Source: Cytophagales bacterium
GTDB lineage: Bacteria; Bacteroidota; Bacteroidia; Cytophagales; Thermoflexibacteraceae
DNA: 64,000 nucleotides
Reading direction: 5' to 3'
NCBI GenBank assembly: GCA_004294445.1
Contig: REAZ01000017.1
Location: 124,001-188,000, forward strand
Position 1 is the first letter of the stretch. Every line of letters starts with the position of its first letter. The notes beneath the pieces were generated by a model. That model saw nothing but the letters and a program-made list of their open reading frames with translations. It was not told the origin of the DNA and did no database searches. Positions 11,055 to 56,189 of this stretch are shown in pieces. The translations under genes and the position numbers were made by a program.

Positions 11055-12755
11055 ATGCCAACTGAAAAGCAAATTACAAAACCCGATACCATCATATTGC
11101 CACCCAAATATTATTTGGCAAATTTTCGCTATATGCTTGATTTTGTGCAAGAAAAGTCGGTTCATTTGCTCCAAGCACGAGAATATAAATTCATCACTCT
11201 TTTCAACTGTCTTTCCGAAGATGCACAATGTCTGTTTGTCAGGTTCGTAAACCGTAGAAAGGCTTTTTTCAAAACAAGTCAATTAGCTTACCCCGAAATA
11301 GCTCAAATGCCAGAAGTTTTGAAAGAACTTACTGAAAAACAATTTATTACGCCACTTGCTTCGCAACATCACGAGCGAGTGCTGTACTTATTAGAAATTT
11401 TTACAAAAAACGAACTTGTAGAAATTATTAGACAGACAGGTACAAAGCCCGACAAGCAAGGGAAAAAATCTACGCTCACCCTTTGGATTCTCGAACATAT
11501 TCCTTTTGATGTTTTAGTAGAAATTATTTCCACTAAAAGTCTGATTATCAAGCAAGAATTTGAAGAAGAAGTAGAGTTTCTGATGTTTCTATTTTTTGGA
11601 AATTTAGGCATGGATATGACTCGCTTTGTCATCAGAGATTTAGGGCATGTGCAGTATGAGGAATTTGACGAAAAAAAGCTAACTGCCTACTTCAAAACAC
11701 GCAAAGAAGCAGAGGACAAACTAAAAATGGAAAAAGCCCGCTTGCATTTTGGCTTTTTATCTGTGCTTTATTCAGGCATTGAACTTTACGATTGGTTTAT
11801 CTCCCAACTCCCTGATTGGCAGCACCTAAGCGAGGCAGCACAGCGAATTTTTGATAGACTTTGCCTCGAATTAGGTAAGATATTAGAAAAAAATAAAGCA
11901 GAGCAGGAAGCACTAAAAATCTATCAATACACAGCCAAATCGCCTTCGATAGAGCGACAAATACGGCTTTTGCACAAATTGGGCTATGTGCAGGAGGCTT
12001 TGATACTTTGCAAAAAGTTAGAAATGAATCCATTAAACCCCGAAGAAAAACTTTTTGCGATTGATTTTAGAAAAAAATTGGAGAGGTTAAGTTCTGAAAA
12101 AGCAACGCCAAAAACTACTACCCGATGGCTAAACGAAGCGGAAAGTATCGACATAGACGCTTCATTCCTGCACAATGTAGAGATTGGCACATTAGAATAC
12201 TTTAAAAAGCAAGAATTTGACGGCATTTTTACAGAAAATTATTTGTGGAATGCCCTATTTGGCGTAATTTTTTGGGATATTATTTTTGATGAAAATCAAG
12301 ATGCTATCCATCACCCTTTTCAGCTTGCCCCTTCAGACTTGCGGAGGGACAATTTTTGGGAAAAACGCCAACACCAACTTTTGGAAAGAACAAGTATCTT
12401 GGACGATAAAGAACGTTTTTATGCCCACCTTCAGCATATTATTTCTACCAAAAAAGGCAAGGCAAATCCCTTTGTTTTTTGGCATGAAGACCTGCTTTTT
12501 CATCTGAGCAAATGCTACGAACTCCTTGATTCCGACCAGCTCGGCATCGTGATGCTCGAAATGGCGAAAAATATCAAAGAATATTCTAAAGGCTTTCCAG
12601 ATTTGCTAGTTTGGAAAGAAGAAACCTACTGCTTCATAGAGGTAAAATCACCTAACGACCACCTCTCCGCCCACCAAGTTTTTTGGCTTTCGTTTTTCAA
12701 AAACGTGGGCATTCAGGCAAAAGTAGTACGGGTAAATTTTAAAGTAAAAGATTAG
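11055..12755 (+). CDS. VRR-NUC domain nuclease, FAN1-like
   Basis: 566 residues. The C-terminus carries the VRR-NUC form of the PD-(D/E)XK fold: GFPDLLVW near 511-518, then FIEVKSP near 525-531, followed by H and Q on the next helix. The N-terminal part (YMLDFVQEKSVHLL and a helix-turn-helix-like stretch) resembles the FAN1 SAP/HTH region, and a helical TPR-like middle follows. FAN1 proteins are structure-specific 5' flap nucleases in interstrand-crosslink repair; bacterial homologues are known. The gene starts 1 base after corA, an odd but probably chance operon partner. Confidence 0.85.
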   Translation: MPTEKQITKPDTIILPPKYYLANFRYMLDFVQEKSVHLLQAREYKFITLFNCLSEDAQCLFVRFVNRRKAFFKTSQLAYPEIAQMPEVLKELTEKQFITPLASQHHERVLYLLEIFTKNELVEIIRQTGTKPDKQGKKSTLTLWILEHIPFDVLVEIISTKSLIIKQEFEEEVEFLMFLFFGNLGMDMTRFVIRDLGHVQYEEFDEKKLTAYFKTRKEAEDKLKMEKARLHFGFLSVLYSGIELYDWFISQLPDWQHLSEAAQRIFDRLCLELGKILEKNKAEQEALKIYQYTAKSPSIERQIRLLHKLGYVQEALILCKKLEMNPLNPEEKLFAIDFRKKLERLSSEKATPKTTTRWLNEAESIDIDASFLHNVEIGTLEYFKKQEFDGIFTENYLWNALFGVIFWDIIFDENQDAIHHPFQLAPSDLRRDNFWEKRQHQLLERTSILDDKERFYAHLQHIISTKKGKANPFVFWHEDLLFHLSKCYELLDSDQLGIVMLEMAKNIKEYSKGFPDLLVWKEETYCFIEVKSPNDHLSAHQVFWLSFFKNVGIQAKVVRVNFKVKD

Positions 12756-13123: not shown

Positions 13124-13173
13124 CTGCACCGTCTGACCGAAGGTCTGTACGGTGCAGACCTTCGGTCAGACCG
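13124..13173. repeat. Intergenic palindromic repeat
   Basis: GTCTGACCGAAGGTCTG (13131-13147) is the exact reverse complement of 13155-13171, a 17-bp stem around a 7-base loop. An alternative hairpin pairs CTGCACCGT (13124-13132) with ACGGTGCAG (13149-13157), so two structures exclude each other. It is clearly GC-richer than its surroundings. Similar words (GGTCTG, ACGGT, CAGACCGTA) recur inside the macroglobulin gene at 51670-51726. It looks like a REP/MITE-like dispersed element and has no T-run. Confidence 0.7.
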
Positions 13174-13235: not shown

Positions 13236-15434
13236 ATGACTTCGACTTGTTTTAGATTAATAGCAAAACGTTTAGCTGAATTAAGCAATCACGCACATCT
13301 GAACTTTGGCTTTGGTTTAGAATTTCAGAATATAATTGATTTTAAGGAAGATACAGAAGATTTTAGCAATGCTCTGACAGAAATTTGTCAGCGTATTGAC
13401 CTTGCTATGCTCCGAAATGAAATTCCTGATAATAAGCTATTTAAGCTATTAGAAGCGAGCGGAGTCCCCGTTTTTACTTTTGTACAAGAAGGAAATGTAG
13501 TTTTGCCTACTATTTTTTACCAAACGGAAAGCGGCGAATGGTTTGGCTATCTTTACCGAGATAGTAAGGAGGAGAAGATTATCGACATAATGCCCTACCT
13601 CCAAAAGTTGTATGTAAAAGATAAGAAAAAAAATGACATTGTTTATTTTACTCCCTTCCCACTTACGCCTTTAGTTTCCGAAAAAGAACCCGATAAAATA
13701 GGCAATACTCCCTCACCCGTAGAGCGGCTTTTCCGATTGCTTGCTTTAGAGAAAAGGGATATTATGTACGTTTATTTCTACGCATTTATTATTGCACTTA
13801 TCAGTCTGACACTACCTTTGGGTATTCAGACTATGATGGAATTAGTAGCAGGAGGCGTAATTTTTAACTCTATCGTGCTACTTATTGCCTTTATTATCAT
13901 AGGTATTCTGGCGGCAGGAGCCTTACAAATATTACAATATACCTTAGTGGAGGTGATAGAAAGGCGTATCTTTGTGAAAGCAGCCATGGAATTTGGCTAC
14001 CGTATTCCAAGGGTACGTACGGAAGCCCTCTCAAACTACTACGCACCAGAGCTGATGAATCGTTTTTTTGATGTACTTACTTTGCAAAAGGGCTTGCCTA
14101 AGTTCTTAATAGACCTTGCTGGTTCGGTACTACAAATTCTTTTTGGTTTAGTTTTACTTTCTTTTTACCACCCTTTTTTCGTATTTTTTGGCTTATCAGT
14201 CATTATTGCCTTAGTGATGATTGTCTATTTTACAGGTCCGAGCGGGCTTAGGGCGAGCATCATCGAGTCTAAATATAAATACAAAGTAGCTCATTGGTTA
14301 GAAGAATTAGCACGCACCTTAGAGGCTTTCAAAATGGCGGGACACACTTCACTTCCTCTGTCAAAAATGGAGTATTTGGTGAATAATTACCTGTACTATA
14401 GGAAGAAGCATTTTAAAGTATTGATGATTCAGTTCAGCAACATTATTGGCTTTAAAACTGTGGTAACAGGCGGCTTGCTTATCATCGGCAGTTTGTTAGT
14501 CATAGATAGGCAAATTACATTAGGACAATTTGTGGCTTCCGAAATCATCATTATCTTGATACTGAATGCTATAGAAAAACTCATTTCGAGCCTTAGTACC
14601 ATTTTTGATATGCTCACCGCCGTAGATAAAATAGGCTATGTAACTGATTTCCCCTTAGAGCGAAAAAGCGGTATTTTTTTCCCAAAAGAAATGCAAGGGG
14701 GCATAAGCCTAAAAATAAGGAATCTGAAATATAAGCACACTAACTCATCGGAATACACCCTCAAAGGCATAGACTTAGACATTCAGGCAGGTGAACATAT
14801 ATGTATTGCAGGTTTTAATCAGGCGGGCAAGAACACTTTTGCCAATGTAATTGGGGGCTTATTAGAATCTTATGAAGGCTCTATAGCAATAAACAACATA
14901 TCGATGCGAGAGATTAGCTTGTCGAGCCTTCGAGACGTGGTTGCCTATAATTTTTCTACAAATGACATTTTTGAAGGCTCCGTACTTGACAATATTCAGA
15001 TGGGAAGAAGTAATATTTCCTATCAAGATGTGGTTTGGGCAGTAGATAACATGGGCTTGGCAGACATTGTCCATGCGCTCCCTGACGGACTACAAACCGA
15101 ACTTATTGCGGGGGCGAAGAACTTCTCCAGCAGTGTCCTTACCAAACTCACTATTGCAAGATGTATTGCCGAAAGACCTAAATTATTGATTTTAAATGAT
15201 TTCTTACACTTTTTAGAGAAAGAGGAGCGTTTGCGTGTGCTACATTTCTTAATGGACAAGAAAAATCCTTGGACGCTTTTGTGCGTATCAAACGACCCTA
15301 CATTACTTACTACTTGCGATAAAATAGTGATGATGAAAGATGGATTAGTCATAGGAAATGGTACTTATGAAGAATTACTACCTAATCCAGATTTCCAAAA
15401 AATTCTAATTAACCCAAAAGATTTAAAAAATTAA
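13236..15434 (+). CDS. ABC exporter-like protein with degenerate ATPase motifs
   Basis: 732 residues: a soluble N-terminal domain (1-170) in the place of a C39-like domain but without a clear Cys/His pair, an exporter-type membrane domain (about 175-450) and a nucleotide-binding-like domain (about 485-732). The NBD motifs are all altered: Walker A reads GFNQAGKNT (residues 526-534; Asn after Lys), the LSGGQ signature is replaced by NFSSSVL, Walker B ends ILND instead of ILDE, and the switch His is missing (VSNDP). It may be a pseudo-ATPase that pairs with an active partner, or have another role. No HlyD or TolC partner gene is adjacent. Confidence 0.8.
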   Translation: MTSTCFRLIAKRLAELSNHAHLNFGFGLEFQNIIDFKEDTEDFSNALTEICQRIDLAMLRNEIPDNKLFKLLEASGVPVFTFVQEGNVVLPTIFYQTESGEWFGYLYRDSKEEKIIDIMPYLQKLYVKDKKKNDIVYFTPFPLTPLVSEKEPDKIGNTPSPVERLFRLLALEKRDIMYVYFYAFIIALISLTLPLGIQTMMELVAGGVIFNSIVLLIAFIIIGILAAGALQILQYTLVEVIERRIFVKAAMEFGYRIPRVRTEALSNYYAPELMNRFFDVLTLQKGLPKFLIDLAGSVLQILFGLVLLSFYHPFFVFFGLSVIIALVMIVYFTGPSGLRASIIESKYKYKVAHWLEELARTLEAFKMAGHTSLPLSKMEYLVNNYLYYRKKHFKVLMIQFSNIIGFKTVVTGGLLIIGSLLVIDRQITLGQFVASEIIIILILNAIEKLISSLSTIFDMLTAVDKIGYVTDFPLERKSGIFFPKEMQGGISLKIRNLKYKHTNSSEYTLKGIDLDIQAGEHICIAGFNQAGKNTFANVIGGLLESYEGSIAINNISMREISLSSLRDVVAYNFSTNDIFEGSVLDNIQMGRSNISYQDVVWAVDNMGLADIVHALPDGLQTELIAGAKNFSSSVLTKLTIARCIAERPKLLILNDFLHFLEKEERLRVLHFLMDKKNPWTLLCVSNDPTLLTTCDKIVMMKDGLVIGNGTYEELLPNPDFQKILINPKDLKN

Positions 15435-18259: not shown

Positions 18260-18352
18260 TAAATATATAGGAATTTTAAATATAATCATATAAGTTTGTG
18301 TAGTTCAGTACACTACTTCCTGCATTTTTCTCATTCTATTAATTTGCGGTAT

Positions 18353-20509
18353 ATGAAATATATTTTAAATATCTTATTTATTTTTCTTACAAATCAGATA
18401 ATGGCAGATTTTTTAAAGCCTGTAATTATCAGAAATAATACAGAGGACTTTAGCTTATTACCATTTGTAGAAGTTTTACCTAATCCTCAAGAAAATCTTA
18501 CCTTTGAAGAGGCTTCTTCGCAAGAATACCATGCCAAATTTATGCCTTATAACAAGCAAATCGGGCTTTTTCCTGATAAAAATGTGGCTTGGGTACGTTT
18601 TACGCTTACCAATGACAGCAAAGCTGATGATTGGCTGTTGGATTTTGGTTCGAATTACGATTCTATGACATTGTACAGCATTGATAATGAGCAAAAAGTG
18701 ACGGTATATACCCAAAGTTCTCAAACAGCTACTACCCAAATAGTAAAGTATTATGGTATTGCTAATTATTTGCCATTAGATATTCATCAAAAAGCAACAA
18801 ATACATATTACCTAAGACTACAGCTCTATAAAAATATTGTGCTACAAAACAAGGGAACCTTCAAAGGATCGCATAACATCATTGTTCAGCCAGAAAATAT
18901 CGTAAAAAACGATTTTGAACAACGTAAATACTTGGGTAGTGCTTATACAGCTATTTATCTGATAATGACCTTTTATATTTTTGTACTGTTTATATACTTT
19001 AGGGATAAAAGTTACTTGTATTTCTCCTTAATGCTATTTTCGACCGCATTGATGAGTCTTTTCCCTTTAGACACTTTTTGTGCTTTTTTTGGACTAAATA
19101 AGGTACAAGAAAGTTATCTTTATTTTTTCTCCTTCCTTCTACCATGTTTTTTTTTACTCCTTTTTGCTCGTTCTTATTTATTATTGTCGCATTATACGCC
19201 TATTTGGGATAGGATAATTATAGGATTGCTTGCACTTGTTACGCTTTATTGGCTACTCGCCCTATTTAATGTATGGGTAATAATATTAGGTTTATCTATT
19301 ATAGTATGTGCTATTTTTGTCGTGCTGTTTGCTGGTATAGTTGTGGTAACTAAAGGCTATAAACCTGCAAGATATTTTTTAATGGCAAATATTTTTTATT
19401 TATTAGGTTGGACACTTACTATATTAACAGCCTTTAATATTATTGGATCCAGATCTCTTGCGATCAATGGTCGTTCTATTGGTGGCATTTTCCAGATACT
19501 TTTATTTGCTGTGGGCTTGCTTTACCGCCTCGAAGAAATGCGCAAAGAAATAGAAACAGGAAAAGAAGAAAGGCAGAAAATGATAGAAACGCAAAACGAA
19601 CGATTGGAAAAAGAGGTAACAGCACGCACAAGTGAACTACAAGCAAGTGAAGAAGAACTTCGCCAGAACATGGAAGAATTAGAAACTAATCAGGAAGTCA
19701 TTAAAAATCAAAGAGATAGATTAGAAAAAGCCTTTGAAGAATTGGAAGGTAAAAACTTGCGCATTACAGACAGTATTCGCTATGCAAAGCGCATACAAGG
19801 TGCTGTATTGCCACATGAAGACGTACTAAAAAATAATTTTGAAGAACATTTGCTTATTTTTCGCCCAAAAGATGTGGTTTCTGGTGATTTTTATTGGTAT
19901 GATGAAGTAGCAGAAAGAAAATTTTTGGCGGTGGTAGATTGTACGGGGCATGGTGTACCCGGTGCCTTTATGAGCATGATTGGAAATACATTATTAGATG
20001 AAATTATTAATACAAAACATATTTTTGAGCCGCATTTGATTTTAGACCAACTGCATAAAAGTATCATTGCAGCATTGGGAAGCGAAGGTGGACATTTGCA
20101 AGACGGAATGGACGTTGCGCTGTGCTGCATACAAGCACAAGAAAATAATAAATTCTTAGTAAAATATAGTGGCGCAAAAAGACCTATTTTCTACTTCTCG
20201 AATGGCGAACTAAAAGAGGCGGCGGGAACTAAAAAGTCTATTGGACAAACCAATGCCGCCGCCTATTTTGAACTGCACACTTTTTTGATGAATAAGGGAG
20301 ATATTATTTATTTGACTACTGACGGAGTTACAGATATTATCAATTCCAAAAGACAAAGACTTGGTAGTAAGCACTTTAAAGAAATGCTTGTTCAAAATGC
20401 TTATTTACCACTTGCCATTCAAAAAGAAGCATTTTTACAAGAGTTGGACTCTTTCCAAGAAAATACCGAGCAGAGAGATGATATTCTATTTTTGGCAGTA
20501 AAACTATAA
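18353..20509 (+). CDS. 7TMR-DISM sensor with SpoIIE-type PP2C serine/threonine phosphatase
   Basis: 718 residues from the ATG at 18353. This start gives a signal peptide (MKYILNILFIFLTNQIMA); an ATG 57 bases upstream would hide it. Order: extracytoplasmic 7TMR-DISMED2-like jelly roll (about 20-180), seven membrane segments (about 195-385), a coiled coil (about 395-480) containing SEEELRQNMEELETNQE, then the SpoIIE/PP2C domain (about 480-718) with VVSGDFYW, VVDCTGHGVPGAFMS, and DGMDVALC metal-site motifs. It probably senses an external ligand and dephosphorylates a protein, for example an anti-sigma antagonist. No partner switching genes are adjacent. It converges on the sugar dehydrogenase gene with a 2-base gap. 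Confidence 0.9.
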   Translation: MKYILNILFIFLTNQIMADFLKPVIIRNNTEDFSLLPFVEVLPNPQENLTFEEASSQEYHAKFMPYNKQIGLFPDKNVAWVRFTLTNDSKADDWLLDFGSNYDSMTLYSIDNEQKVTVYTQSSQTATTQIVKYYGIANYLPLDIHQKATNTYYLRLQLYKNIVLQNKGTFKGSHNIIVQPENIVKNDFEQRKYLGSAYTAIYLIMTFYIFVLFIYFRDKSYLYFSLMLFSTALMSLFPLDTFCAFFGLNKVQESYLYFFSFLLPCFFLLLFARSYLLLSHYTPIWDRIIIGLLALVTLYWLLALFNVWVIILGLSIIVCAIFVVLFAGIVVVTKGYKPARYFLMANIFYLLGWTLTILTAFNIIGSRSLAINGRSIGGIFQILLFAVGLLYRLEEMRKEIETGKEERQKMIETQNERLEKEVTARTSELQASEEELRQNMEELETNQEVIKNQRDRLEKAFEELEGKNLRITDSIRYAKRIQGAVLPHEDVLKNNFEEHLLIFRPKDVVSGDFYWYDEVAERKFLAVVDCTGHGVPGAFMSMIGNTLLDEIINTKHIFEPHLILDQLHKSIIAALGSEGGHLQDGMDVALCCIQAQENNKFLVKYSGAKRPIFYFSNGELKEAAGTKKSIGQTNAAAYFELHTFLMNKGDIIYLTTDGVTDIINSKRQRLGSKHFKEMLVQNAYLPLAIQKEAFLQELDSFQENTEQRDDILFLAVKL

Positions 20510-49625: not shown

Positions 49626-52600
49626 ATGTCAAAACTAACACTCTCTCTTACGATTGCGTTCTGCTTTATTTTTTTAGCAAGCATTTTCGCTACTTCGGAA
49701 ACTCTTCCAAAGTTTGAAGCTTTGGAAAAGTTGGCGCAATTTCTTCAACTCAAAATCTCAGACCAAGAATCTGAAACCAACAACCAACAACTAAAAAGTA
49801 TGAAATTTTTTGAAGGAAAAAACTATAAAAGTGATTGGAAAAAGGTCGACTCTTTGGAAAGCAAAGGACTGACCGAATCGGCACTGAAAATCGTAGATGA
49901 AATCTATGCAAAAGCACAAAAAGAAAACAATGCTGAGCAGTTCATCAAGGCAATAGTCTATCAGGCAAAGTATATTTCTTTCAGAGAAGAAGATGCAAGC
50001 GTGAAGATTTTGAATAAGTTAGACAGTGAGGCTGCGATTGCTACTTTTCCCGTAAAACCCGTATTACACAGCGTTTTAGCGGGTTTGTATTGGCAGTATT
50101 ACGAAGATAATCGATGGCGTTTTTATGACCGCAGCAACACGATTCAGTTCGAGAAAAAGGACATTGCTACTTGGTCTATCAATGATATAGTGAATGAAAC
50201 AGTAAAGCAATATCATCTTTCTTTGCAGGAAACTGAAAAGCTAAAAGCCACAAAAATAGATATTTACCACGAAATTTTAGGAGCAAATAGAGATAGTACT
50301 GCTGCAAGTTTTGCCAAAGGTAAAAATCGCAACTTAAGACCTACACTTTACGACTTTTTGGCACACAGAGCCGTTGATTTTTTTAGCAATTCGGAGCCAG
50401 AAATTACCCGCCCCGCCTACAAATTTGAGTTGGACAAGGCAGAATACTTTGGTTCGGCAAAAAACTTTGCTGCTTTAAAGATAGAAACAAAAGATACTTT
50501 GGCAATGAAGTTTCATACAGTTGTACTTTTGCAAGATTTGATAAAATTTCATGCAGACGGAAATAAAGATGCTTTGGCTGATGCCGATTTGAAACGCATT
50601 AATTTTGTGTATGACTACTCGGTTCATTCCCAAAAAGAAGAACTGTATTTGAAGGCTTTGCAAGATTTCCAAACTATCTATGAAGGCTCCCCGATTGCGG
50701 CTGATGCAGCTTATTTGGTTGCAAAACTCTATCAAGAGCAGGGAGAAAAATATAGTTTTTCCAAGAATAACGAAACGTATCGCTGGAAATTGAAAGAAGC
50801 TATAGAACTGGCGGAAAAGGCAATAAAAAAATATCCGAATACACAAGGAGCATACAACTACCTGAGTATCATAGAGGCTGTAAAGACTAAATCCTTGACA
50901 ATGAACGTAGAAAAAGTAAGCCCTTCGCAAAAAGCACAAAGAGCTTTAGTAACCTACCGAAATGTAGAAAAAATGTATTTTAAAGTCGTAGCGACTGATT
51001 ATGAGGAACTAAGCACAATGGCAGGCTACTACTACAACTACGAAGAAAGAGAAAAACTCATCAGCAAAATCTTTGAACGCAAGGGAGTGAAGTCTTGGAA
51101 TGTAAAACTGCCTACTGATGATGGCGACTTTCAGGCACACGCTACTGAAATGCTTGTTCCCGAAATGCCACACGGTTATTATTTTCTTTTAGCTTCTGAT
51201 AATGAGGGTTTTAAATATAAGAAAAATACCTTAGTTTGGTCGCATTTTATTGTTTCTGACCTTAGCTTGATGGGTAGGGCTTGGACTGAAAAGGGAGAGC
51301 AAGAATTTTACATACTTAATAGAACTTCGGGGAAGGGCGTACAAAAAGTGCAGGCACAGGCATTCTATAGAGAATATAACTACAATTCTCGTAAATATGA
51401 GTACAAAAAAGGAAACATTTATACCTCTGACAAAGATGGCTATTTGAAAATTCAGCATGATAGCAAGGGCAAACGTGGGAATGAAAATTTTAACCTACAA
51501 CTTACAAATGGCACAGACAAACTGCATACGGACGAAAGTTTTTATGTATATCAACCCTATCAGAGAGAGCCAGATTCGTACTACAAGACGTTTTTCTTCA
51601 CAGACAGAGGCATTTACAGACCTTCGCAGACCATTTATTTCAAAGGAATTTTGTTGAATTTTAAAAATAGGTCTGACGGTACGTCTGACCCGTCTGATAA
51701 GGATAAGAAAGACGGTACAGACCGTAGTTTAAAGCCTGAAATCATTAAAAATCAGACCTTAAAAGTTTATTTGTATGACGTAAATGGGCAAAAAAGTAGC
51801 GAATTAGAAGTAAAAACAAATGAATACGGAAGTTTTAGCGGTTCGTTTGTTGCCCCCGTAGGTGCGCTCAATGGCGAAATGACTTTGAGGTTAGATAGCG
51901 GTTACGGTGGCTATCATGCTATTTCGGTAGAGGAGTACAAGCGACCGAAGTTTGAGGTAAGTTTTGAGCCTGTGAAAGGTAGCTACAAATTGGGCGAAAA
52001 AGTGAAAATAGAAGGCAAGGCAAAGGCGTATTCGGGGGCAAACATCGACAATGCCGAAGTAAAATACCGCATTGTTCGCAAGGCAAAACTGCCGTACTAT
52101 TGGTGGTGGTGGTATCCCGATTTCCAAGTTTCACCCGAAATGGAAATTACGAATGGCAGTACAACAACAGATAAAGATGGTGTGTTTACAGTTGATTTTG
52201 AGGCAATTCCAGATTTGAGTTTGCCAAAAAGTTCGAAGCCTACCTTCACTTACGAAGTTTTTGCAGACGTAACCGACCTCAATGGAGAAACACATTCAGG
52301 TTCGCAGGGCGTAAGCATTGGCTATACGGCTTTGGAAATAGAAAGCAATATTCCTGATGTGGTGGAGTTGGATAAAATGAAAAGTTTTGAGATAAATTCT
52401 ACCAATTTGAGTGGGGAGTTTGAGCCAGCGCAAGGAACTTACACTTTGCACGCACTAAAGACACCACAAAAGGTCTTTAGAAAACGCCTTTGGACAAAGC
52501 CCGATAAGTTTTTGCTTTCTAAAACGGATTTTTATAAGGCTTTCCCTAATGATGAATATGAAAATGAAAGTAATATTTATACTTGGGCAAAAGGCGAAAA

Positions 52601-55600
52601 AGTAGCAGACAAAGCTTTTGACACAGGGAAAGATAAAAAATTGGCTTTCAATGAGTTAAAAGCTGGTGTATATGTGCTGGAAATGACTGCCAAAGACAAA
52701 TATGGCGAAGAAGTAAAGGGTTTAAAATACTTTACAGTCTATTCACTAAAGGCAAAAACACCTGTTTACAATTTGACAGATTGGATAAAGCCACTGAAAA
52801 ATAGGTACGAAGTAGGCGAAACAGCCCAAATTTGTGTGGGAACTGCTTATCAAAATGTGCCTATTTTATACGAAATAGAAATAGATGGAAATGTCATCAA
52901 AAAAGATTGGTTGAGTTTCAATAATGAGCAGCAAATACTTGAAATTCCTGTAACCGAAGCAATGAAAGGCAATTTTGGCGTGCATCTGACCTTTATTCAA
53001 AACAATAGGGTGCATAAAGCCGACCAGACTATTGCTGTTCCACACACAGATAAAGAGTTGGAAATTAGTTTTGAAACATTTAGAAATAAACTTTTTCCTG
53101 GGGCAAATGAGGAATGGAAAATAAAAATCAAGGGCAAAAAAGGTGATAAAGTAGCTGCCGAAATGGTCGCTACACTTTATGATGCCTCGCTTGACGTTTT
53201 CAGGGCAAACAGTTTCAATTTTGATATTTTGTCCTACAACCAGACCGTTAGGTATTGGAATAGCTATGGTTTTGGCTCAAAAGGCTCAGATATTTCTGCT
53301 CTTTGGAATACCAACCAATACTCAATACAGCAGAGGGAGTATGACAACTTGTACCTTTTTGGCTTGGAGCAAGGCAGGTATGCTTTGCGAAGTGCAGCAT
53401 TGGTAGGAGGAGTGGAAATGATGGAAAGTGCAGCAAGGTTTGATAGTGCTGCTGAAGACGATGCAGGAATGTCGGCAGAGGAAGCACCTTCACCAAAGAA
53501 AAGCAGGGCAAAGAAGAATGGAAGAGCAGAAGATATAGATGTGGATTTGAATGTTGAGGTAAATCAAAGCGTTACTGTTGTTGCACCAACTGTTGTTCCA
53601 AAAAAAGCAATGGAGGAGCAAGAGGAAGAAAAACCCAAAGAAGAACCCAAACTTGACCAAGTAAAAGCACGTACCAATTTCAATGAAACCGCTTTCTTCA
53701 TGCCTCATTTGGAAACAGATGCGGAGGGAAATGTGATTGTCAAGTTCTCCATTCCCGAAAGTTTGACTCGCTGGAAAATGATGGGTTTTGCACACACAAA
53801 GGACTTGAAATACGGTTTTACGCAAAATGAATTGGTTACGCAAAAAGACTTGATGGTTGTGCCAAATGCGCCTCGCTTTTTTAGGGAAAATGACGAAATG
53901 ACTTTTGCCTCTAAAATCACCAATATTTCTGATAAAGATTTGACAGGGAAGGCGAAAGTGCTATTTTTTGATGCGATTAGTATGAAAGATGTAAGTGCAG
54001 AACTTATTTTACCTCCCCCTACCCCCTCCAAAGGGGGGCAAACAACTAATCTCCCCCTCACTGAGGGGGCGGGGGGAGGTCTTGCGTTCACCGTTCCCAA
54101 AGGACAAAGCACAGTTGTCAAGTGGAATGTGCGTATTCCTGATGCTAAATATCAAGCAATTACATACAGAGTAGTTGCCCAAGCGGGAGAGTTTACTGAC
54201 GGTGAGGAAATGAGTGTACCTGTTTTGACTAATAGAATGATGATAACGGAAACCTTGCCTTTACCTGTGCGTGGCGGTCAAACGAAAAACTACGAACTCA
54301 CAAAGTTGGTAAAGAACAAGTCCACGACTCTGAAAAACCACAAATTGACGTTGGAGTTTACATCTAATCCTGCGTGGTATGCGTTACAGGCTCTACCGTA
54401 TTTGATGGAATATCCTTATGAGTGTGCCGAGCAGACATTTAGTCGTTTTTACGCCAATAGTATTGCAAGCCATGTCGCTAATTCGCACCCAAAAATCAAA
54501 AATGTGTTTGATACATGGGCAAGTGCCAATCCAAATTCAGCAGGAGGTGCAGAGGGAAGTTCTGCCTTTTTATCCAATTTGGAGAAAAACCAAGAGTTAA
54601 AATATTTGATGTTGCAGGAAACGCCTTGGGTAGTCAATGCACAAAACGAACAGGCTCGCAAAAAACAAATTGGTGTTTTATTTGACCTCAACCGTATGTC
54701 AAGTGAGTTAGGGCGTACCTTGACGAAGTTAGAGCAGATGCAAACGCCAAACGGAGGTTTCCCTTGGTTTGATGGAATGCCTGATTCTCGTTGGATTACA
54801 CAGCATATAGTAGCGGGTATGGGGCATTTGGACAAGCTCGGCGTGAAAACTATGCGACCAAACGCCACAGCTTCCGCACCCACAAAAATTGACTATGGCA
54901 TTGATTCTGAACGCACTTGGCGCATGATAGAAAAAGCGACTTTGTATTTGGACGAACGAATGAAAGAAGATTATGACAATTTGGTGGACTATTGCAAGCG
55001 CAATAAACTCAAATTGGAGGAGCAAAAAGTTGGTTATGAGGACATTCACTACCTTTATACTCGTTCTTTTTTCAAAGACATTGCGCTGGCAGGGAAAAAC
55101 AAAGTTGCTTACGATTATTTCTTAGGGCAGACAAAAAAATATTGGTTAGGAAATGGACTGTATATGGAAGGAATGTTAGCCCTCGTACATTACAGAAATG
55201 GGAACGAAGCAACTGCCAAAGACATTGTTAAATCATTGAAAGAGAGAAGTTTGAACAGTGATGAAATGGGAATGTATTGGAAAAACATGATGAAAGGTGG
55301 CTATTGGTGGTATGAAGCCCCTATAGAAACCCAAGCTCTTATGATTGAGGTATTTAGCGAAGTGGCAAAAGATGAAAAAGCTGTAGATGACCTCAAAGTT
55401 TGGCTACTAAAACAAAAGCAAACTCAAGATTGGGAAACTACCAAAGCAACTTCTGAAGCCTGCTATGCCCTTCTTTTACAAGGAGATAACTGGTTGCTAA
55501 GTGATGAGTTGGTAGAAGTTACGCTTGGAAATACGAAGGTAAACCCAAAAGATATGGAAGATGTAAAAATCGAAGCTGGCACAGGTTACTTCAAAACTTC

Positions 55601-56189
55601 TTGGAACAAGGAAGCAATCACGCCAGAAATGGGCAAAGTTACCGTTTATTTGCCCCCCCCTGCCCCCCCGAAAGGTGGGGAGAAAAAAACAAGTGGTGGT
55701 GTAGCTTGGGGCGGACTCTATTGGCAGTATTTTGAGCAGTTGGACAAAATTACGCCTGCGGAAACGCCTTTGAAACTAAAAAAACAGCTTTTTGTGCAGG
55801 AAAATAGCCCTACAGGTCTGGTAAGTCGCCCAATTTTGGAAAACACACCACTCAAAGTGGGCGATTTGGTGAAAGTTCGCATAGAGCTAAAAGTCGACCG
55901 AGCCATGGAATACGTACACATGAAAGACATGAGGGCGGCAGGTTTTGAGCCTACCAACGTGATTTCACGCTACAAATACCAAGACGGACTCAGCTACTAC
56001 GAAACGACCAAAGATGCGGCTACTAACTTCTTTTTCGGCTACTTAGGGCAAGGCACTTACGTTTTTGAGTACGATTTGCGGGTGAGTCATGCAGGAGATT
56101 TCTCCAATGGCGTTACCACTATCCAATGTATGTACGCCCCAGAGTTTAGCAGCCATTCAGAAGGCGTGAGGGTAAGGGTGAAGGAATAA
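49626..56189 (+). CDS. Alpha-2-macroglobulin family protein with thioester motif
   Basis: 2187 residues. Signal peptide (about 1-23), a helical/TPR-like N-terminal third, macroglobulin-type beta domains, a charged low-complexity bait-like region (about 1278-1350, rich in E, K, P), then the alpha-2-macroglobulin core (FNETAFFMPHLETDAEGNV) and the thioester motif PYECAEQTF (C1600 to Q1603), and C-terminal receptor-binding-like domains. It would trap proteases in the periplasm or at the surface. Three GC-rich palindromic repeats are translated within it (about residues 682-701, 1462-1485 and 2009-2020). Its last 19 codons are duplicated downstream of the rloAB genes. Confidence 0.9.
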   Translation: MSKLTLSLTIAFCFIFLASIFATSETLPKFEALEKLAQFLQLKISDQESETNNQQLKSMKFFEGKNYKSDWKKVDSLESKGLTESALKIVDEIYAKAQKENNAEQFIKAIVYQAKYISFREEDASVKILNKLDSEAAIATFPVKPVLHSVLAGLYWQYYEDNRWRFYDRSNTIQFEKKDIATWSINDIVNETVKQYHLSLQETEKLKATKIDIYHEILGANRDSTAASFAKGKNRNLRPTLYDFLAHRAVDFFSNSEPEITRPAYKFELDKAEYFGSAKNFAALKIETKDTLAMKFHTVVLLQDLIKFHADGNKDALADADLKRINFVYDYSVHSQKEELYLKALQDFQTIYEGSPIAADAAYLVAKLYQEQGEKYSFSKNNETYRWKLKEAIELAEKAIKKYPNTQGAYNYLSIIEAVKTKSLTMNVEKVSPSQKAQRALVTYRNVEKMYFKVVATDYEELSTMAGYYYNYEEREKLISKIFERKGVKSWNVKLPTDDGDFQAHATEMLVPEMPHGYYFLLASDNEGFKYKKNTLVWSHFIVSDLSLMGRAWTEKGEQEFYILNRTSGKGVQKVQAQAFYREYNYNSRKYEYKKGNIYTSDKDGYLKIQHDSKGKRGNENFNLQLTNGTDKLHTDESFYVYQPYQREPDSYYKTFFFTDRGIYRPSQTIYFKGILLNFKNRSDGTSDPSDKDKKDGTDRSLKPEIIKNQTLKVYLYDVNGQKSSELEVKTNEYGSFSGSFVAPVGALNGEMTLRLDSGYGGYHAISVEEYKRPKFEVSFEPVKGSYKLGEKVKIEGKAKAYSGANIDNAEVKYRIVRKAKLPYYWWWWYPDFQVSPEMEITNGSTTTDKDGVFTVDFEAIPDLSLPKSSKPTFTYEVFADVTDLNGETHSGSQGVSIGYTALEIESNIPDVVELDKMKSFEINSTNLSGEFEPAQGTYTLHALKTPQKVFRKRLWTKPDKFLLSKTDFYKAFPNDEYENESNIYTWAKGEKVADKAFDTGKDKKLAFNELKAGVYVLEMTAKDKYGEEVKGLKYFTVYSLKAKTPVYNLTDWIKPLKNRYEVGETAQICVGTAYQNVPILYEIEIDGNVIKKDWLSFNNEQQILEIPVTEAMKGNFGVHLTFIQNNRVHKADQTIAVPHTDKELEISFETFRNKLFPGANEEWKIKIKGKKGDKVAAEMVATLYDASLDVFRANSFNFDILSYNQTVRYWNSYGFGSKGSDISALWNTNQYSIQQREYDNLYLFGLEQGRYALRSAALVGGVEMMESAARFDSAAEDDAGMSAEEAPSPKKSRAKKNGRAEDIDVDLNVEVNQSVTVVAPTVVPKKAMEEQEEEKPKEEPKLDQVKARTNFNETAFFMPHLETDAEGNVIVKFSIPESLTRWKMMGFAHTKDLKYGFTQNELVTQKDLMVVPNAPRFFRENDEMTFASKITNISDKDLTGKAKVLFFDAISMKDVSAELILPPPTPSKGGQTTNLPLTEGAGGGLAFTVPKGQSTVVKWNVRIPDAKYQAITYRVVAQAGEFTDGEEMSVPVLTNRMMITETLPLPVRGGQTKNYELTKLVKNKSTTLKNHKLTLEFTSNPAWYALQALPYLMEYPYECAEQTFSRFYANSIASHVANSHPKIKNVFDTWASANPNSAGGAEGSSAFLSNLEKNQELKYLMLQETPWVVNAQNEQARKKQIGVLFDLNRMSSELGRTLTKLEQMQTPNGGFPWFDGMPDSRWITQHIVAGMGHLDKLGVKTMRPNATASAPTKIDYGIDSERTWRMIEKATLYLDERMKEDYDNLVDYCKRNKLKLEEQKVGYEDIHYLYTRSFFKDIALAGKNKVAYDYFLGQTKKYWLGNGLYMEGMLALVHYRNGNEATAKDIVKSLKERSLNSDEMGMYWKNMMKGGYWWYEAPIETQALMIEVFSEVAKDEKAVDDLKVWLLKQKQTQDWETTKATSEACYALLLQGDNWLLSDELVEVTLGNTKVNPKDMEDVKIEAGTGYFKTSWNKEAITPEMGKVTVYLPPPAPPKGGEKKTSGGVAWGGLYWQYFEQLDKITPAETPLKLKKQLFVQENSPTGLVSRPILENTPLKVGDLVKVRIELKVDRAMEYVHMKDMRAAGFEPTNVISRYKYQDGLSYYETTKDAATNFFFGYLGQGTYVFEYDLRVSHAGDFSNGVTTIQCMYAPEFSSHSEGVRVRVKE
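51670..51726 (+). repeat. Palindromic repeat inside the macroglobulin gene (1)
   Basis: GGTCTG at 51670-51675 pairs with CAGACC at 51718-51723, and ACGGT (51712-51716) with ACCGT (51721-51725). It contains tandem GTCTGAC words and is translated as a Ser/Asp/Gly/Lys-rich insert. It shares words with the palindrome at 13124-13173. Confidence 0.55.
54011..54080 (+). repeat. Palindromic repeat inside the macroglobulin gene (2)
   Basis: A 70-base GC-rich unit. ACCTCCCCC (54011-54019) pairs with GGGGGAGGT (54072-54080); inside, CCCCC (54022-54026)/GGGGG and CCCCCTCA (54053-54060)/TGAGGGGG (54062-54069) form two more hairpins, a cloverleaf-like plan. Translated as a Pro/Gly/Thr-rich loop between beta strands. 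Confidence 0.75.
55652..55681 (+). repeat. Palindromic repeat inside the macroglobulin gene (3)
   Basis: Two C-runs, then CCCCCCCGAAAGGTGGGG. It is a shorter relative of the 54011 unit, translated as PPPAPPKGGE. Confidence 0.6.

Follow-up and report, generated by a model that had tools for sequence, protein, structure and literature searches.

An ABC-type exporter family with a worn ATPase domain in Bacteroidota and its putative role in HlyD-TolC tripartite export

Comparison with described transporters

Type I secretion systems of the HlyB-HlyD-TolC type and the PCAT exporters resemble the protein studied here, encoded in a 64,000-nucleotide stretch of the genome of a Cytophagales bacterium (the whole stretch analysed, referred to below as the window), in the exporter fold (Foldseek matches to PCAT1 and to HlyB, 8dck, TMq 0.73), in the HlyD and TolC neighbours found in the window family, and in an N-terminal domain weakly like C39 peptidases. 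However, the ATPase motifs of the window family are degenerate or the nucleotide-binding domain (NBD) is absent, the window gene stands alone, and its product matches no Pfam family other than PF00005 and PF00664, C39 included. The NCBIfam scores of the window protein were far under the curated cut-offs, with 157.1 against 693.1 for TIGR03375 and 124.9 against 725.55 for TIGR01846 (both type I secretion ABC models), and 185.2 against 853.3 for TIGR03796 (NHLM ABC1). Heterodimeric exporters, such as TM287/288, TmrAB, TAP, or BmrCD, share the fold and the presence of Asp for the catalytic Glu in one subunit. In these exporters one working site is kept with an intact partner, whereas in the window family the signature, Walker B, and switch His are all lost.

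Transport by exporter-derived membrane domains that lack an NBD has also been described. According to PMC13316013, SbmA/BacA (SLiPT) is a natural NBD-less peptide transporter made of the membrane domain of an ABC exporter, from which it is thought to derive by NBD loss; it is proton-driven, and acidic residues of the membrane domain are proposed as proton carriers. However, the relatives of the window protein belong to a different family (in Pfam-A, the NBD-less members L036 and L176 match only PF00664 at E<=0.01), have HlyD and TolC partners, and include surviving intermediates with a dead NBD, whereas SbmA is an importer. As for the SLiPT trait of a missing NBD with lost coupling helices, the NBD is absent in one clade of the family, where alone coupling helix 2 is relaxed, and is degenerate in the window protein. 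The membrane domains of LmrA and MsbA (LmrA-MD, MsbA-MD) carry out ion-coupled, specifically proton-coupled, transport with the NBD removed, for which LmrA needs E314 of TM6 (PMC2704374, PMC6155054, and PMC4979069). These are laboratory truncations, unlike the NBD loss among the window relatives, which is natural and fixed in a clade. A search of open-licence papers found no description of a degenerate or NBD-less family of this kind. The “HlyBD2-OMP2” pump of Blastomonas, mentioned in PMC9505733, may be a Sphingomonadales member of it; PMC11989028 concerns other pumps, and PMC8277102 served as a background source.

The window gene and its ATPase motifs

The gene starts with ATG and encodes 732 aa, with no internal stop in the open reading frame at 13236-15434 (+). 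Motifs were placed by alignment with an intact exporter, and the name of the coupling helix was assigned by alignment to exporters. The features are as follows:

13236..15434, + strand, ABC-exporter-like gene with degenerate ATPase motifs
13236..13703, + strand, fast-evolving N-terminal domain, residues 1-156 (64% and 47% identity to two same-genus copies)
13707..14675, + strand, type IV exporter transmembrane domain, residues 158-480 (best-conserved region)
14265..14315, + strand, coupling-helix-2 region ESKYKYKVAHWLEELAR, residues 344-360
14541..14543, + strand, Glu436 in TM6, candidate ion-coupling carboxylate
14703..15410, + strand, degenerate NBD, residues 490-725
14811..14837, + strand, Walker A remnant GFNQAGKNT
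14955..14957, + strand, Q-loop position, Gln replaced by Ser574
15120..15137, + strand, signature remnant NFSSSV (canonical LSGGQ)
15180..15200, + strand, Walker B remnant KLLILND (canonically ending in DE), with Asn654-Asp655
15291..15293, + strand, switch position, Asn686 (canonical His)

Comparison with L002, an intact exporter of the same genome (GESGSGKST / Q / LSGGQ / DE / H), bore out the residues named in the first-pass annotation, namely Asn for Ser/Thr in Walker A, NFSSSV in the signature, ND in Walker B, and no switch His. The accompanying claim that all ATPase motifs are lost holds for the Q-loop, signature, Walker B, and switch, so that four of the five motifs needed for the function of a type IV ABC exporter are replaced. 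It goes too far for Walker A, which is partly altered: its fourth Gly is changed to Gln and its Ser/Thr to Asn533, whereas G526, G531, K532, and T534 are still present. The nearest relatives (81% and 71% identity) carry the same changes, and the paralogues of the window genome are intact where patterns matched, so the motif loss is neither chance nor a sequencing artefact. The pattern search detected both Walker motifs in each of the seven exporter-like paralogues, Walker B of L005 having DD in place of DE, and the signature in five.

The window protein is recognised by Pfam as ABC_tran (57.5 bits, cut-off 25) and ABC_membrane (32.4 bits, cut-off 28), and its AlphaFold2 model has a confident exporter fold (pLDDT 86.3, pTM 0.77) whose closest structures are PCAT1, HlyB, TM287/288, and MsbA, with a VIA-align Z of about 30 over residues 157-729, as expected of the six-helix membrane domain and C-terminal NBD of a type IV ABC exporter. 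The model of the N-terminal domain (pLDDT 86.0, pTM 0.81) bears a weak resemblance to C39/papain-like peptidase domains, with a best Foldseek E of 3e-3 and an E of 1.1e-2 for the PCAT1 peptidase domain; since no match reached E<=0.001, its assignment as a C39-like domain was dropped. Conservation is concentrated in the membrane domain: when 60 NBD-bearing members were aligned (A1), 59 columns were invariant, of which 54 lie at residues 191-465 and five in the NBD. The dN/dS ratio was measurable in three NBD pairs, the other four being saturated, and amounted to 0.024 (L011/L012), 0.093 (L018/L019), and 0.046 (window/L009, with synonymous sites near saturation). By this measure, the dead NBD is under purifying selection, in agreement with the earlier description of the gene as full length, undisturbed, and kept.

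The window gene is flanked by a 78-aa open reading frame upstream and a convergent DUF4783 gene downstream. A terminator-like hairpin of 19 pairs with a T-rich tail occurs shortly 5' of the gene, at 13131-13171, although the region is not enriched in such sites relative to shuffled sequences. Just upstream, 11055-12755 (+) encodes 566 aa with FAN1_HTH and VRR_NUC domains, a candidate bacterial FAN1-like nuclease. Elsewhere in the window, the 737-aa product of 18296-20509 (+) is a SiaA-like 7TMR-DISM protein (191 bits, under the cut-off of 700) that carries a SpoIIE-type phosphatase domain, and 49626-56189 (+) is an open reading frame of 2187 aa.

Motif loss, partner genes and NBD removal in the family

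Relatives were chosen by similarity to the query and loci were taken from the best matches, which introduces a sampling bias; 148 genomes drawn evenly across the phylum were also searched, and a flavobacterial member used as query matched 39 of them at E<=1e-50. Of 39 relative genomes, 30 have a match at E<=1e-40, a count that includes the genome of the window, and the scan of genome contigs confirmed 126 stretches, the best 80 of which were used. After removal of duplicates and short fragments, 195 membrane-domain sequences remained. Nine of them are labelled here as act (Walker B DE and switch His present), 131 as pseudo (NBD present, not both of these features), and 55 as NBD-less, the pseudo label being defined in this analysis. 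The motif columns of the pseudo rows, with four to five rows gapped at a given motif, contain the signature GG in 0/131, Walker B DE in 2/131, the second signature Gly in 4/131, and the switch His in 7/131, so that an initial statement that this His is missing in every relative was dropped; DE, His, and second Gly are missing together in 120/131. The Walker A lysine (Lys532) is found in 123/131, GK[ST] in 97/131, and the catalytic position is acidic in 112/131. The nine act rows, from Bacteroidota classes other than that of the window, have the Walker A Lys, DE, and His in 9/9 and the second Gly in 8/9, with the Q-loop Gln in 0/9. Three NBD-bearing members, L037, L057, and L171, have a Walker A that aligns without its lysine, which suggests that P-loop loss in Bacteroidota may have happened more than once.

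The first-pass annotation had proposed that orthologues with intact motifs would make this a decaying single case. The outcome was mixed: motif loss turned out to be common to orthologues across Bacteroidia, although Walker A, DE, and His are retained in nine distant orthologues from other classes; loss shared so broadly, with near-intact orthologues at a distance, points to an old, inherited state. Judged from these alignments, the window gene is a member of a widespread bacterial ABC-type exporter family with a worn ATPase domain, not one decaying copy. Intact motifs were taken as ancestral because regain is unlikely, and not from tree rooting, as the branch of the outgroup L002 is very long and leaves the root unsettled.

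The family is regularly accompanied by genes for an adaptor and a channel. Among 110 members of cluster 0, the next gene on the same strand is HlyD-like in 91, the second gene is TolC-like in 68, and the preceding gene is TetR-like in 52; example neighbours matched HlyD_3, OEP (one TolC-like gene), and TetR_N in Pfam. By profile, HlyD comes next at 195 of 214 loci, comprising 137 of 156 NBD-bearing and all 58 NBD-less loci. The frequent TetR neighbour hints at a substrate that is small or toxic; in the window's genus no TetR homologue was found (0/3 genomes), and a shared TetR regulator for the window gene was rejected on this ground. The HlyD-TolC gene arrangement thus holds for the family, whereas the window's own HlyD and TolC genes are unlinked to it: each was found as a single match with a full-length frame, on contigs C8 and C11, the HlyD being 64% identical to that of L011. 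Two observations count against a tripartite exporter. HlyD is non-adjacent at 19 of the 156 NBD-bearing loci, the window and some cut contigs included, and genome G004 of the same family (89% complete) matched HlyD and TolC with no match to the window protein. As the window genome is 62% complete, the absence of other genes there says little. In L112 (Flavobacterium covae), the HlyD-type gene is one frame of 824 aa, whereas HlyD and TolC are two frames in relatives; this is either a fusion or a sequencing artefact.

At 58 of the 214 loci (55 distinct sequences), the membrane domain occurs without an NBD. These reading frames stop 1-10 aa past the transmembrane-domain profile, and they overlap the HlyD frame, counted from its first Met, by a median of 8 nt; no NBD remnant was found at the 58 loci in any frame at E<=0.01, and L036 had no match among PDB sequences at E<=1. 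Two “other NBD” matches next to relatives in L179 and L185 looked UvrA-type on reading of their sequences, rather than from a family search, and were dropped. The loci are spread over families f23 (31), f10 (15), f12 (9), and f17 (3, all one genome region), a spread from which several independent NBD deletions were expected. However, the trees place the NBD-less sequences in one clade (support 100/100) beside pseudo members of the window's order, and a single deletion with later transfer fits better. For the order of G116, a hand count over 250 genomes gave 73 that carry frames of 333-380 aa, 41 that carry frames of 535-589 aa, and none that carry both. Of the positions conserved among pseudo rows, NBD-less rows have lost 5/5 within 351-367 versus 14/71 elsewhere (Fisher p=6e-4, kinship ignored). 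Such relaxation of coupling-helix-2 positions is as expected if no NBD docks there, in trans included; in the NBD-bearing pseudo rows, W354 of this helix is present in 131/131.

The family also extends to Sphingomonadales. A plasmid search with an NBD-less query returned 22 records, 15 of them Sphingomonadales by organism name. Three regions (Novosphingobium pNL2, Croceicoccus, and Sphingobium) have the gene order ABC-like, HlyD-type, TolC, the HlyD-type gene of one being annotated as a biotin/lipoyl-binding protein. Their exporter-like members have lost the P-loop lysine and kept Glu436 and Trp354, with ABC_tran under the cut-off or unlisted. As they group with the act rows (support 100/100), the ATPase loss in this order was probably independent.

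Energy coupling and alternative explanations

The sequence comparisons provide good support for ATPase loss. The preferred reading, at slightly better than even odds, is that the window protein acts as the inner-membrane subunit in a tripartite exporter with HlyD and TolC, has given up ATP hydrolysis, and is probably driven by ions. Its ancestor would be a type I secretion/PCAT-like ABC exporter, and the complex would consist of the window-type protein with a HlyD-type adaptor and a TolC-type channel. We infer a homodimer, predicted to have no competent ATP site, that couples an ion gradient through the membrane domain to the export of a small molecule or peptide into the HlyD-TolC conduit. 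The dead NBD may remain docked on the membrane domain in a structural or regulatory role, and other lineages have dropped it wholly and retained the rest. Ion-driven export is favoured by the proton coupling of SbmA and of the MsbA and LmrA membrane domains, by the predicted lack of a competent ATP site, and by the invariance of Glu436, which has a frequency of 1.00 in all three groups (act, 9 rows; pseudo, 131; NBD-less, 55), and whose equivalent is missing in all seven same-genome paralogues. This TM6 residue is the first candidate for a coupling carboxylate; its presence in nine relatives with DE and His indicates that it did not arise to replace ATP. E314 lies 74 residues before the Walker A Lys388 of LmrA and E436 lies 96 before K532, so the two positions probably differ; D458 of the window protein lies 74 residues before K532.

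An unlikely alternative is an ATP-gated transporter or very slow ATPase, in which the NBDs bind ATP via the P-loop remnant and binding or slow hydrolysis gates an ion-driven or passive conduit. The frequent retention of the Walker A Lys and of the catalytic-position acid leaves room for such activity, and GK[ST], the purifying selection on the NBD, and the invariant W354 are in line with it. However, the second signature Gly is missing in 127/131 rows, gaps included, three Sphingomonadales members lack the P-loop Lys, and the 58 loci that lack an NBD retain HlyD. With the energy module lost, the protein might also not be an active pump and instead serve as a passive conduit, a HlyD-TolC assembly platform, or a sensor, an improbable role given that the exporter fold and the charges of the membrane domain, Glu436 included, are conserved and that the operon layout is of the tripartite exporter type. 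Outright decay into a pseudogene would account for the degenerate motifs and is hardly credible for a full-length frame with relatives in many families and an NBD dN/dS that stays under 0.1 in each of the three comparisons where it was measurable.

Two further possibilities place the working ATPase on another gene. The protein was initially suggested to be the non-hydrolysing half of a heterodimer, whose intact ABC partner would be encoded elsewhere; such heterodimers, with one site degenerate, are common (PMC7756269), and the window genome has exporter-like paralogues, seven of which were examined. This suggestion did not hold up well. With the signature, Walker B, and His all gone, both composite sites would be defective, and the co-occurring intact half that it predicts was not consistently found in the flanks (<=6 kb) of the best 80 of the 126 loci, where other ABC matches amounted to four, one of them a C39-type exporter cut by the locus end. 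Such a half, if any, might be unlinked. The existence of an NBD-less clade and the lack of overlap between the 73 NBD-less and 41 NBD-bearing genomes also count against a classical heterodimer half, which we regard as quite improbable. Borrowing of a stand-alone NBD in trans by the membrane domain has a precedent in YddA-type transporters, whose transmembrane domain and NBD are on separate genes (PMC13316013). It seems very improbable, however, as no other NBD was found at the 58 NBD-less loci (most flanks about 1.5 kb) and the coupling-helix-2 contact positions are relaxed in that clade.

The earlier proposal that the protein may serve a new purpose is probably right. More tentatively, at somewhat less than an even chance, the family may form a separate class of ion-driven tripartite exporters that arose as ABC exporters first lost ATPase function step by step and later discarded the domain, with near-intact, dead-NBD, and NBD-less stages persisting in Bacteroidota and an apparently separate loss in Sphingomonadales that includes the P-loop lysine. 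If true, this would be a second natural case, after SbmA, in which an ABC exporter became a secondary transporter, and would place such a pump in a HlyD-TolC conduit; in the literature covered, earlier support for ATP-free, ion-driven ABC exporters comes from the engineered LmrA-MD and MsbA-MD and from SbmA. As naturally occurring members with differing degrees of ATPase loss coexist with one type of adaptor and channel, it can be tested directly what energises transport, what a dead NBD does, and how small the membrane part of a tripartite exporter can be. Some genes named “ABC transporter ATP-binding protein” are thus probably not ATPases.
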